From Methanobrevibacter millerae (GTDB lineage: Archaea; Methanobacteriota; Methanobacteria; Methanobacteriales; Methanobacteriaceae), in contig NZ_FMXB01000007.1 in the NCBI RefSeq assembly GCF_900103415.1, positions 62,001-126,000 of the forward strand: a DNA stretch of 64,000 bases, in the 5' to 3' direction. Below the pieces are notes generated by a model. It made no database searches. It had not been told where the DNA came from and was given only the letters and a program-made list of their open reading frames with translations. The position numbers and the translations under genes were made by a program. Positions 33,329 through 38,612 of this stretch are shown in pieces (positions within the stretch are counted from its first letter, which is position 1; each line of letters begins with the position of its first letter).

Positions 33329-33814
33329 TTGGATTTCAAAAAAATCATTGGAATTTTGTTCGTGATAGTGGGTCTGATTTTCATAATCAGCCCGATGTTC
33401 AGTTCTGAAATGGCTTCAGTAATTGTCGGACTGAGCTTGTTATTCTTCGGTATCGCTTCAATCATTAACGGGATTTCATCTCAGTACACAATGCCGATAT
33501 TTTCGACCGCCAATATAATAATAGGGGTTATATCCCTTATATTCGGGGTATTATTCATATTCTTCATTGACGCACTGTCATTCCTTCTCGGACTGCAGTT
33601 CTATATAATCGGATTTATAATGGTTGTATTCGGTATACTGGGAATTATTTCTGAATCAAAGCTTTCAAAAATGTCGTCCCTGCTGATTTTAATCATTGGT
33701 ATAATGGCTATTGCCCTTGCTGTATGCACTACTGCACAACCGGTTTATGCCGCAATTCTGATTGGAGTATGTTTGCTTATCGAAGGAATAAGATTCTTTA
33801 TAATTGATGATTAG
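33329..33814 (+). CDS. DUF308/HdeD-like small membrane protein
   Basis: 161 residues, almost entirely six hydrophobic helices with glycine-rich packing (IIGILFVIVGLIFIISPMFS, VIVGLSLLFFGIASIINGIS, LIFGVLFIFF). This matches the DUF308/HdeD type. The start is TTG 33329, supported by GGTGAT at 33320-33325; no ATG is nearby. HdeD is linked to acid resistance in enterobacteria, but most archaeal members have no known role. It is a single gene ended by a hairpin terminator. Confidence 0.75.
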   Translation: MDFKKIIGILFVIVGLIFIISPMFSSEMASVIVGLSLLFFGIASIINGISSQYTMPIFSTANIIIGVISLIFGVLFIFFIDALSFLLGLQFYIIGFIMVVFGILGIISESKLSKMSSLLILIIGIMAIALAVCTTAQPVYAAILIGVCLLIEGIRFFIIDD

Positions 33815-34060: not shown

Positions 34061-34143
34061 TATTAATGACTAATATTATCTTGTCAATTAAATATTTGCT
34101 AGCATATATTCATTGATTAAAAAATAATTTGGAGGGGATTGAA

Positions 34144-35118
34144 ATTAGAATTAGACCAATAGATAATAAAACAAAGAACAGCTGTGATTCAATGTTAAAA
34201 GTAGCGGCTCATGCTTTCACCAATGCATTAATTCCAATCACGGATATCCCCGATGATGATTATGAAGTATTGTCATGTGAAATATTCAAACCCGGAGCCG
34301 ATGTAAAATCCATGGATATACTGTTGAAAGGTAAAAAAGGATTTGTAAATATTGAATTTCACAAACAACCTCTTGCAAAATATCACCTTGCCAGAGATTT
34401 TGAATATGTGGTTCAATATTTCTTTTTCTATGGGGAAATAATCGATCAAAGGATTGTAGTCGTAGATAAAGAAAGAAAATCTGTTGATAAACTACAAATC
34501 ATGCCAGATTTGGAGTATAAAGGAAAAATTGATTATGTTGAAGAGTTAGATGGGCAAATAGTGTTAAATACTATTAAGGATAAAATAAAAAATAACCAAG
34601 TGCCCAACGAGTTAGAACTGTTCATTTTTTCCATACTTCCAATCACCGATCATGATTTTGATGATGAAGAGAAGTTAATGGAAGAATTGTGCAATCTAAC
34701 TCCTCAATTGAATATTTCTGAAGAAGACCGTGATGCCATAGTCTTTTGTCAGATGATTTTGATTGAGTTATGTGTGAATGACGACTATTTGAAAGAAAAA
34801 TTGCTAGGGGTGATTAATATGACTTCATCTTTCATTCAAAACCGTGAAAATGCTTTAAAACGCAGGATTGTGGTTGCTGAGCAGACGGCTCTTAATGAGA
34901 GGCAGAGGGCGGATGATGCTGAGCTTACTGCTTCTAATGAGAGGCAGAGGGCGGATGATGCTGAGCTTACTGCTTCTAATGAGAGGCAGAGGGCTGATGC
35001 TGAAAAGAAAAGAGCTGATGCTACTGAAGAAATTTTAAAAGAAATTGTTGAAAATAATGATATTGAATTTAATAAAGAAACAATGAAAAAAATATCTTCA
35101 GTTACTACGATATTCTAA
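34144..35118 (+). CDS. Rpn-like PD-(D/E)XK family nuclease with internal start; apparent ATT start
   Basis: 324 residues from ATT 34144. GGAGGGGAT (34131-34139) ends 4 nt before this ATT; the only canonical in-frame codon, TTG 34129, overlaps that ribosome binding site. Residues about 10-120 contain KSMDILLKGKKGFVNIEFHKQ, with an aspartate and a glutamate spaced as in PD-(D/E)XK nucleases of the Rpn (recombination-promoting nuclease) type, though a histidine replaces the usual K/Q. Residues about 130-220 are helical. The tail from about 226 is a coiled coil with two exact 42-bp units (NERQRADDAELTAS). An ATG at 34819 with GGGGTGAT at ideal spacing can start the tail alone. The family call is inference from pattern. 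Confidence 0.65.
   Translation: MRIRPIDNKTKNSCDSMLKVAAHAFTNALIPITDIPDDDYEVLSCEIFKPGADVKSMDILLKGKKGFVNIEFHKQPLAKYHLARDFEYVVQYFFFYGEIIDQRIVVVDKERKSVDKLQIMPDLEYKGKIDYVEELDGQIVLNTIKDKIKNNQVPNELELFIFSILPITDHDFDDEEKLMEELCNLTPQLNISEEDRDAIVFCQMILIELCVNDDYLKEKLLGVINMTSSFIQNRENALKRRIVVAEQTALNERQRADDAELTASNERQRADDAELTASNERQRADAEKKRADATEEILKEIVENNDIEFNKETMKKISSVTTIF
34819..35118 (+). CDS. Predicted intragenic product: C-terminal coiled-coil protein of the Rpn-like gene
   Basis: ATG 34819 is in frame with the long protein and is preceded by GGGGTGAT (34807-34814) and a 4-nt spacer, the same arrangement used by ordinary genes in this window (for example 52742). It would give a 99-residue protein beginning MTSSFIQNRENALKRRIVVA and holding only the helical repeat region. 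In bacterial Rpn nucleases a similar internal start makes a small protein that inhibits the full-length toxin. Translation here is a prediction. Confidence 0.45.
   Translation: MTSSFIQNRENALKRRIVVAEQTALNERQRADDAELTASNERQRADDAELTASNERQRADAEKKRADATEEILKEIVENNDIEFNKETMKKISSVTTIF
34894..34995 (+). repeat. 42-bp in-frame tandem repeat, two exact units plus a partial third
   Basis: Units 34894-34935 and 34936-34977 are identical (AATGAGAGGCAGAGGGCGGA and onward), and a partial unit follows at 34978. They encode 14 residues each, the same period as the repeats at 210-335 and 628-711. Confidence 0.9.
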
Positions 35119-35300
35119 AAGGGAAAAAATAAATTAACTATGTGGTTAGATAGTTGATTTATAATGTTTTCCTTTTTCTTTATTTTTTGTTTTATTAAGT
35201 ATTTATAATCATTTATTTGGGATTCGGGATAGTATGGTCTTATTAGATGATTTATGTAAAGAATGATTGAGTTAAAGAAAAATTTTTGGAGTTCGTTGTA

Positions 35301-35549
35301 ATGTCTTTATCTTATATTGAAAATAGGGAAAATGCTTTAAAACGCAGGATTGTGGTTGCTGAGCAGACGGCTCTTAATGAGAGGCGGAGGGCTGATGATG
35401 CGGAGCTTATTGCTTCTAATGAGAGGCGAAGGGCTGATGCTGAAAAGAAAAGGGCTGATGATGCTGTAGAAATTTTAAAACAAATTGTTGACAATAATGA
35501 TATTAAATTAAGTCAAAAAACAAGGAATAAAATAAAGTTGCAGTTATGA
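35301..35549 (+). CDS. Detached copy of the Rpn-like tail
   Basis: 82 residues starting MSLSYIENRENALKRRIVVA, then identical to the tail of the preceding protein for most of its length but with a single 42-bp unit fewer (NERRRADDAELIAS, NERRRADAEKKRADDA). Homology upstream of the ATG can be followed at nucleotide level for about 55 bp, but that part no longer reads in frame, so this is the 3' remnant of a duplicated gene that retains an open frame. GGAG (35288-35291) could serve the ATG. It starts at the same place as the predicted intragenic product of its neighbour. It may be a stand-alone inhibitor protein or merely debris. Confidence 0.5.
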   Translation: MSLSYIENRENALKRRIVVAEQTALNERRRADDAELIASNERRRADAEKKRADDAVEILKQIVDNNDIKLSQKTRNKIKLQL

Positions 35550-35686
35550 TATTTCATAAACAAACACAGAAGAAAGATATTGAAAAAAAAGTTACAGAAA
35601 AAGAAATCCTCGGATTAGTAAAAACGGAATTGCCGTACAACAGTGTTGAAATTAAAAAAAGAGGATCAAAAGGATTGAAATGGTAA
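35546..35686 (+). CDS. Small 46-residue ORF overlapping the tail copy (ATGA)
   Basis: ATG 35546 overlaps the preceding stop in the sequence ATGA. The 46 residues (MIFHKQTQKKDIEKK..., ending KKRGSKGLKW) are lysine-rich and hydrophilic. No ribosome binding site is seen, so it would depend on coupling to the preceding gene. The family is not recognised; it could also be the end of a decayed gene. Confidence 0.3.
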   Translation: MIFHKQTQKKDIEKKVTEKEILGLVKTELPYNSVEIKKRGSKGLKW

Positions 35687-35765
35687 TAACCTGATATTTT
35701 AAACAAATCAATATCCATAAAGTTAGGGTATTTTAATATTAATTAAAAAAAGAAAAAATAATCAG

Positions 35766-38612
35766 CTATTCGATGAGAATAGCCGGTTTATAAGGCATTG
35801 CGTTTTTAGCCTTGTTTTGCGGGTCGTATGAATCGTCGGTATGCACAATCACTTCACTTCCAACTTCATTGGAGATGTATTCGAGAGCGTCATCAATGAT
35901 TTGCGCTTCATCGATTTTACCCACGTATTTGGTTTTGGTCATTTCACGGCCGATTTTTTTGGCTACGGCAGCTATTTCCTTTTTGTCGTCATAAATGTCT
36001 GCTTTAACAGCTCTGCCCATAATCTGGCCGATATCAGGCTTTCCAACCTCATTAGCTATTTCAAAGAGATCCCATTTCCAGTCGGAAGCAAGGTAAATGT
36101 GTACCTTTTGGGCGTCTTCTCCAACCATCTTCTTAATCTGGTTGATGTCCTTTATGAGATTTTGAACCAATTCTTCTGACTTTTCAATTTCAAGGCTGAT
36201 TAGGCTTTCATCAGCTTCAGGCCATTTAGCAGCACTTACAAAGCCTTCGCCGCCATAATTGGACCATAATTCTTCACATGCGTGTGGAGTGAACGGCGCA
36301 AGAAGCCTTATCCATGATTCTACAACCGTTGATAAGACGTAAATCACTGCAGGGTCCTTTTTGTCAAGGAGGTGATTGACTCTGTAGAGATAGTGGTCAA
36401 TATCCTTTTTAAGCAGGAAGAGTGATTCCTGTAAAGCCTTTCTGGTCTGGAAAACTTCTAAAGCTTCTGTTGACGCTTTAATGTGCTGGTTGAGCTGGCT
36501 TAACATCCATAAATCAATGGTTCTTGTTAATTCGACCTTTTCAATGTTGGTTAAATCCAGTTTGGAGCCTTTAATCTCTTCTACTTTTGCTGCGAATTCC
36601 TTAAACCATTCAAGCCTTCTTTTGGTTCCTAAAACTTCCTTTTCCCTCCAGTCGAAGTCCTGCCAAGGTTCGGCTGAAGCCATCAGGAACAGCCTTACGA
36701 CGTCTGCCGTATAGTCTTCAATAGCGTCTTTTAAAAGAATTACGTTTCCTTTTGATGAGGACATCTTGTTTCCTTCCAGAAGACCCATTCCAAAGACTAC
36801 TGTTCCTTTAGGCCATTTGTCTTCAGGAAATATTGCGCTGTGGTGGAACATCAGGAAGCTTAAGTGATTTCCAACAAGGTCTTTTGCGGACAGTCTCCAG
36901 TCGAGAGGATACCAGTAGTTGAATTCGTCCTGGATTTCCTTAACGATTTCCGGAGCTACCTTGATGTCGTCTGAATCAATATCCAAATAAATTTTATCAA
37001 AGAATGCACGGTTCAAGTCGTCAGGATTCATGTCTTTAAGGAATCTGGCAACTGAATAGTATGACATGTAAATTGTGGAGTCGGTCAATGGCTCGATTAA
37101 CCATTTGTTGTCCCAGGGGAGTCTTGTTCCGAGTCCGACTTTTCTTGAACATGCCCAGTCGTCCAGCCAGTCAATGTAATAGTTGAAATTGTTTTTGACT
37201 TCAGGAGGAATGATGGTTTCTCTGTTTAAGACTTCATGGGTCTTTTCCTTCCATTCAGGATTTGAATATTTCATGAACCACTGGTCATCCATGATTTTAA
37301 CGACACAGTTGTTTCCGCATCTGCACACGACAGGCCTTTCTGCGAAATCGTACATGATTGTGGCCATGTTTTTGGATATGAGCTCTTCTTTTAATTCTTC
37401 ACGAGCGAACCTGACCTTTTTTCCTCCGAAGCCAGGAATGCTTTCGATAATGACACCTTTACTGTGCTGAATCTTATACAGTTCATTGGTGGCTTCATGG
37501 AGCTTTTCGTCGTTCTGGTCGGTTATTCCAAGCCTTTCGATAATGTCTGCTGCAGGAATTTCTCCATATCCTTTAACGCTGCACACAGGGATCGGAACAA
37601 CGTTTTCAACGATTCCTTCCAGATTGTATTTCTTGATTAATTCTTCATTTTCCTTTAAGTCTTTAAGAGCAATGTAGTCTGCAGGTGCATCGGCAGGTTC
37701 AGAGAATACAACTCCGCTACCGTATGATGCGCTTACAAAGCTTGCAGGGAAAATCGGGATTTCATCGCCGGTAAATGGATTTATTGCCATTTTACCAATC
37801 AGGTCATCGGGATTAATTTCTGATATGATGTCCAGGCCCTTAATCTGCTGTTCAAGGTTATAATGGGCCTCTTTGGTGATTACCCATTTTTCATCGTTTG
37901 CCTTGACCAAGACGTATTCGACATCGGGATTGAGCCAGATGTTTGTAGCTCCGACGATTGTTTCGGGCCTTAATGTTGCAGTAACGAGAACCTTATCTTC
38001 AATCTTGAATTTAAGAAGCGTAAGCTCGTTGACACCGACGCCTTCCCCTTCAAGCAGGTCGTGGTCTCCTACAGGGTTATCACAGTTAGGGCAGTATTTT
38101 ACTGGATGCTCTCCTTTCTGAACCAGTCCCTTTTCATAAAGCGTGGTTATCTGCCATTCGATGAATTTCTTGTAAGTCGGATCTATTGTTCTGAATTCGC
38201 GCCTCCAGTCGATTGAATAACCCATTTCGTGCATCACTTCATTGTATTCGCTGCTGAAGTATCTTACGATGTATTCTGGGTCTTCCAATTTAGGCAATTC
38301 GTCCTTAGGGACTCTGTGGACGTTTTCATACAGGTCAAGAGTCCAAGGGTCTTTTCTTTTAATCCTGTCGGCTATTCCAATAACAGGCGCGCCGGTAACG
38401 TGCCATGCCATTGGGAACAAAACGTTATAGCCTTCCATTCTTTTGAATCTTGCATATACGTCAGGCACTGTGTATGTACGGCCGTGGCCTATGTGCATAG
38501 CTCCGCTAGGGTATGGAAAAGCTACGGTAATAAACAGTTTTTCCTTATCATTTGGGTTGGATTCAAATAATTTTTCCTCTTCCCATTTCTTCTGCCATTT
38601 CTTTTCTGTCAC
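35766..38612 (-). CDS. leuS: Leucyl-tRNA synthetase
   Basis: 948 residues, archaeal/eukaryotic-type length. The class I signatures are [14 protein letters not shown] (HIGH) and [10 protein letters not shown] (KMSKS); the editing domain ([19 protein letters not shown]) lies between them, and a zinc-type [12 protein letters not shown] is present. It charges tRNA-Leu. The start is GTG 38612, overlapping the nadE stop by one base (TAGTG), with GGTGAT just upstream, so it is translationally coupled to nadE. Confidence 0.97.

Follow-up and report, generated by a model that had tools for sequence, protein, structure and literature searches.

A putative Rpn-type gene-within-gene toxin-antitoxin unit with a detached copy of its antitoxin half in Methanobrevibacter

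Introduction

The rpn genes of E. coli and C. difficile are known to produce a small protein from within the gene (Zhong et al. 2023, PMC10327210). In E. coli, this internal protein is an antitoxin that binds and blocks the long protein, and the inhibition is specific to the cognate pair (PMC10327210). Rpn repeats vary, and separate downstream copies exist: ypaA, encoding RpnES, is found by rpnE, and rpnCS by rpnC (PMC10327210). RpnES from ypaA has been detected as a protein in E. coli, where the cases arose independently and each detached copy resembles its own neighbour most (PMC10327210). We checked the rpnE-ypaA locus of strain MG1655 and found that the duplicated unit starts exactly at AAGGAGagattaATG in both copies. 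No report of archaeal cases of such Rpn units was found in the literature searched.

Here, we analyzed a 64,000-nucleotide stretch of the Methanobrevibacter millerae contig NZ_FMXB01000007.1 (the window, whose coordinates are used throughout). We consider it likely, taking the explanation as a whole, that an 82-codon ORF in this window duplicates, as a detached gene, the antitoxin half of a gene-within-gene toxin-antitoxin unit of the Rpn type.

Results

Organization of the locus

An Rpn-like gene (34129-35118), the 82-codon ORF (35301-35549) and a 46-codon ORF (35546-35686) lie between a DUF308 gene and a gene that we take to be leuS. The features are as follows:

33329-33814: DUF308 protein, upstream flank of the Rpn-like gene
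34144-35118, plus strand: full-length Rpn-like protein (toxin candidate, RpnL-like), open frame from 34129
34809-34814, plus strand: internal Shine-Dalgarno GGTGAT, 4 nt 5' of the internal ATG at 34819
34819-35118, plus strand: intragenic tail ORF (RpnS-like, 99 aa), helical, with 14-residue (two-heptad) repeats
35225-35300, plus strand: decayed upstream remnant of the copy, broken frame, in-frame TGA at 35268-35270
35301-35549, plus strand: detached tail copy (RpnS-like, 82 aa), with the same start residue as the internal ORF
35546-35686, plus strand: 46-codon ORF, fossil of a vapB-type (MazE/AbrB-fold) antitoxin, DNA homology at 35543-35686
35679-35702, plus strand: vapC start remnant (NGNNLIF, then stop), in the register of intact vapBC loci
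35766-38612, minus strand: presumably leuS, a name given from sequence, downstream flank

Family membership of the full-length protein

The product of 34144-35118 has a conserved D...E-x-H (DILL...NIEFH) in a PD-(D/E)XK-like domain, and its named relatives are all from Methanobrevibacter. It has no Rpn match in Pfam or NCBIfam and is not detected with PF04754 or TIGR01784; A2 likewise gave no Pfam match. Using hhalign, no signal was obtained between the window family and RpnE alone. Between the same family and the L018 protein, hhalign gave a 228-column alignment (99.6%, E 3e-24) that keeps the internal Met in register; the L018 protein itself matches TIGR01784 at 3.4e-10, under the curated cut-off. 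The AlphaFold model of the window protein has a mean pLDDT of 74, and the Foldseek matches, EndoMS (prob 0.99) and Cap4 among them, are of the PD-(D/E)XK type but weak. Two features of Rpn genes are also present: the C-terminal tail is preceded by what reads as an internal ribosome-binding site and start codon, and the repeat number in the tail helix varies. Tail and copy differ by indels of repeat length, which are 14 or 21 residues long in the branch of the window and mostly multiples of 4 residues in the others. The window protein appears to work as Rpn does and probably belongs to the family as a divergent member.

DUF4351 (PF14261) is the domain name for detached RpnS in some bacteria. 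The detached tails that we scanned gave no match to PF14261, and a PF12784 search of the organism's own genome found nothing, with the control silent too. Nothing was found by PADLOC, by tblastn against plasmids or by a single-sequence scan of the genome contigs. A sigma-70-type promoter scan, a model unsuited to archaea, gave nothing above chance.

The detached tail copy in the window

The earlier note had described two ORFs overlapping by ATGA, the first of which was a second copy of the Rpn tail beginning at the same residue. Both ORFs exist and do overlap in this way, and the ATG of the 82-codon ORF aligns exactly to the internal ATG at 34819, with 72% amino acid identity to the tail of 34129-35118 counted from the internal Met. 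The product is 82 aa from this ATG, or 87 aa if the TTG at 35286 is used. In a whole-genome search, the tail match had an E of 1.4e-26, with 68% identity over query residues 214-323 and one TGA within. The copy has one 14-residue repeat fewer than the parent tail, and the junction with the vapB fossil at ~35543 has replaced its last residues. Its Shine-Dalgarno is weaker (GGAG at 35288-35291, 9 nt from the ATG).

Reading-frame homology had also been said to be lost just before this start, which is true of the frame further out and too strict close in. In-frame homology continues upstream for ~30 nt (VKEKFLEFVV, compared with LKEKLLGVIN in the parent) up to the TGA at 35268. Beyond it, a weaker DNA similarity with indels and a broken frame extends to ~35225, ~75 nt before the ATG, at a score that 16 of 1000 shuffles reach. 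After the Met, family-conserved residues that the full gene has lost are kept in the copy (E18, Y15, K98 and L101), E18 and L101 being conserved in 13-14 of the 14 other tails; before the Met, the conserved L5, V8 and I9 are lost.

An M/V-[SA]-L-S start is common to the detached tails of the window, G016:C85 (L110) and G022:C21 (L009), the full-length neighbours of which have MTSS. The resemblance may be coincidental, or conversion may have preserved it in an old detached gene.

The 46-codon ORF is a vapB fossil

The ATGA overlap invites the reading, made in the earlier note, that translation of the 46-codon ORF is coupled to that of the 82-codon ORF in a two-gene operon. A homologue search with the 46-residue product argues strongly against this, since it matched VapB C-termini rather than an Rpn-associated partner. 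Residues 11-46 share 75-86% identity with the C-terminus of 78-residue proteins found elsewhere in the genus. In these proteins a MazE-type domain is recognised (PF04014, E 1e-9), and their genes overlap one for a PIN protein of 132 residues (PF01850, E 1e-11), which makes the two a VapBC pair. At the DNA level, vapB homology spans 35543-35686. The first 10 codons of the ORF (MIFHKQTQKK) are outside the vapB frame, which is restored by an 11-nt gap; the in-frame part is limited to the C-terminal 36 residues and does not include the DNA-binding part of VapB. The adjoining vapC is reduced to 7 codons, NGNNLIF and a stop. The ORF therefore has neither the N-terminal MazE/AbrB-fold domain nor the intact vapC expected of a VapB, and intact homologues in the genus precede vapC instead of lying behind an Rpn tail. 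The 46-codon ORF is thus a vapB fossil, not an independent gene or a partner of the tail copy, and a coupled operon is very improbable. Since vapB DNA is read here partly out of frame, the ATGA overlap is an accident of the Rpn-tail/vapB junction, which supplies the stop codon and the last residues of the 82-codon ORF.

No further copies of this VapB were found in the genome. The fossil vapBC (35543-35702) sits between the Rpn tail copy and leuS. The MIF of the 46-codon ORF was also considered as the end of the Rpn tail and was rejected, as the vapB alignment assigns these bases to vapB, out of frame.

Recurrence of tail-only copies in the genus

The proteins of 55 full-length Rpn-like ORFs from 67 Methanobrevibacter genomes were each searched against the 1.5-kb flanks on both sides of their own gene; the survey covers the fetched loci, some of which have little downstream sequence. 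Like the separate downstream RpnS gene of some Rpn loci, downstream tail-only copies were found at 14 of the 55 loci, in 10 genomes, with a tandem pair at one locus; the flanks yielded no N-terminal copies. An intact pair is present in the single-contig genome G006 (L144). Locus L139, with weak tail-like matches on both sides, was left out of the 14. Profile searches added tails in G015:C91 (two in tandem at a contig end), G000:C20, G032:C319 and G018:C29. A tail profile run against 139 genomes of the family matched in this genus only, and the claim is therefore kept to the genus.

Sequence comparison places the onset of homology at the start codon, or within ~33 nt of it, in 10 of the 14 loci. 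In L110, L118 and L133, the sequence before the start is unlike the parent, yet it holds a good Shine-Dalgarno (GAGGTGAT, AGGAG and AGGAG, respectively), which is new and absent from the parent (GAGGTGATtttaGTG in L110, AGGAGttaatcagATG in L118, AGGAGaaaaaaATG in L133). The detached tails thus either retain a ribosome-binding site or acquire one. Four loci have longer upstream homology, with a broken frame there in the window, L115 and L142 and an open one in L127. A broken frame upstream of a tail that stays in frame is as predicted by selection acting on the small product alone.

Tandem tail-only copies occur in G012:C55 (L109) and G015:C91 (L038), with a Shine-Dalgarno and a start codon for each. 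The window's own genome holds two more Rpn-like loci with detached tails, at G000:C20:41950-42420, where the tail is frameshifted at an A-run, and at G000:C2:13854-14800, where it is intact and has a new AGGAG.

Within tail/copy pairs, the coil core is nearly identical and the 5' end divergent, which suggests gene conversion between the copies; in A1, the tail is 73% similar to its own neighbour and at most 48% similar to any other. Detached tails usually have fewer repeats than the neighbour (11 of 14 are shorter), which could change partner choice. A detached tail might then be a decoy or interfering subunit directed against other Rpn-like proteins, including those of mobile elements, and not an extra antitoxin for its neighbour. 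The two G015:C91 tails fit this idea in that the ~120 nt present ahead of them contains no full-length gene, although they are at a contig end and the neighbour gene may simply be unassembled. We regard such a role as unlikely, given that the near-identical coil core points to a cognate partner and that inhibition in E. coli is cognate-specific (PMC10327210).

Selection on the tails and on the internal start

The earlier note had proposed that only the small product is selected, with dN/dS of tail copies in related genomes as the check. Pooled over 14 tail/copy pairs, dS was 0.217 and dN 0.077, a ratio of 0.36, which indicates constraint on average. The window pair alone gave 0.87 and the L133 pair 1.45, so that the selection claim rests on the class, with its recurrence and preserved frame, and not on the window copy. 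Indels between the copies are almost all in frame, in a sample that is biased because the pairs were picked as open frames.

The ratio of the window pair, together with the 3' end clipped at the junction with the dead vapBC, raises the possibility that the window copy is decaying, and it may be partly or wholly non-functional. These two points and the weak GGAG count against the window copy in the explanation that we favor, which is also weakened by damaged tails at other loci and by the absence of Rpn model matches to the window protein. The copy could instead be debris, a truncated Rpn-like duplicate among recombination scraps, unselected and open by chance. A random open frame is not unlikely here (simulated P about 0.27-0.49), the upstream remnant has a broken frame, the 3' end is a junction with a fossil, and 2-4 other detached tails appear frameshifted or truncated (G000:C20, G032:C319 and G018:C29, the frameshifts being clear in the first two). 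Debris would not be expected to start exactly at the internal ATG or to retain conserved residues only past the Met, and the identical cut in independent loci and the pooled ratio also speak against it. We see this as a real possibility for the window copy, somewhat less likely than not, and it can hold there without holding for the class.

That the internal start itself is conserved is indicated by two comparisons. A Shine-Dalgarno of at least 5 nt precedes 22 of 31 internal starts, part of which were assigned by eye, as opposed to 42 of 360 other in-frame Met codons (p 1e-12). Avoiding this placement by eye, we compared the Val codon of the V-[I/V]-x-M motif with other Val codons of the same genes. 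It is GTG, making GTGAT or similar, in 18 of 20 genes, compared with 79 of the 351 others (p 1e-9), and the two exceptions have GGAGG instead. This codon bias indicates that the internal start is selected independently of the protein sequence.

The start codon of the toxin candidate

The probable start of the window Rpn-like gene is the ATT at 34144, behind GGAGGGGAT (region 34131-34146); the sole canonical in-frame codon before the conserved domain is the TTG at 34129, which overlaps the Shine-Dalgarno. At the same alignment column, ATG is found in L009, L152, L046, L110 and L092, and ATT or ATC in 13 genes (the window, L047, L064, L103, L076, L077, L056, L087, L089, L093, L082, L147 and L023). 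With the column set by hand, a Shine-Dalgarno of at least 5 nt precedes 11 of these 13 codons as opposed to 12 of 357 other ATT/ATC codons. In L087 and L089, the frame before the conserved domain lacks ATG, GTG and TTG altogether. Judging from these patterns, AUU/AUC initiation is the simplest reading of the column, and in several other genes a GTG within the Shine-Dalgarno, or a weakly preceded ATG, is a possible alternative start.

If real, AUU/AUC starts would reduce the synthesis of the toxin compared with that of the antitoxin, which starts at ATG. This would be a simple route to antitoxin excess, and annotation pipelines would mis-start or miss such toxins. We give an even chance to a stoichiometry switch in which the AUU/AUC start throttles toxin translation, the intragenic antitoxin has AUG and a strong Shine-Dalgarno, and the free copies add dosage.

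Discussion

In the explanation that we favor, the 34144-35118 gene would encode a predicted PD-(D/E)XK-like nuclease, the helical C-terminal tail of which would also be translated alone from the strong internal Shine-Dalgarno and ATG. The small protein would bind and block the long one, as in bacterial Rpn. Duplication of the 3' part of the gene, with the internal ribosome-binding site as its boundary, would have placed another tail gene immediately behind it. If translated, this copy would raise the supply of cognate antitoxin or provide a variant with a shorter helix. By analogy with the bacterial systems, we infer binding to and inhibition of the long protein, and a possible role in phage defence.

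If true, toxin-antitoxin units of the gene-within-gene type that come with detached antitoxin copies, which are known from E. coli, would also exist in methanogenic archaea, in a lineage that current family models fail to detect. Many such short genes are probably unannotated. The repeated cut at one ribosome-binding site also makes selection for the small product testable through comparison alone.

Among known systems, VapBC (PF04014 antitoxin and PF01850 PIN toxin) resembles the locus only in residues 11-46 of the 46-codon ORF, which match VapB C-termini overlapping vapC; unlike VapBC, the ORF comes with neither an in-frame DNA-binding part nor VapC. The TIGR01784/COG5464 Rpn proteins of Methanobrevibacter (e.g., the L018 protein, G028:C105) are homologous to the window protein, with the internal Met in register. 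The L018-type proteins have a helix-turn-helix-like C-terminal end, whereas the window's subfamily ends in a coiled coil, and relatives outside that subfamily show 4-residue repeat indels and detached tails. The closest likeness is to E. coli rpnE-ypaA and rpnC-rpnCS, in which a tail-only copy with a different repeat number likewise lies downstream on the same strand and begins from the internal Shine-Dalgarno and start codon. Unlike rpnE and rpnC, the genes described here are archaeal, with a highly divergent N-terminal domain that PF04754 and TIGR01784 miss. Their repeats are heptad-based (7, 14 or 21 residues) in the window's subfamily, compared with 4 residues in E. coli Rpn, their toxin start is often ATT/ATC, unlike that of E. 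coli rpn, and neutralisation would be shared with it by inference. Since rpnE-ypaA has the same layout, the archaeal loci are a version of a known arrangement: the kind is known from E. coli, and the archaeal branch, the heptad repeats and the apparent AUU starts make it a variant.
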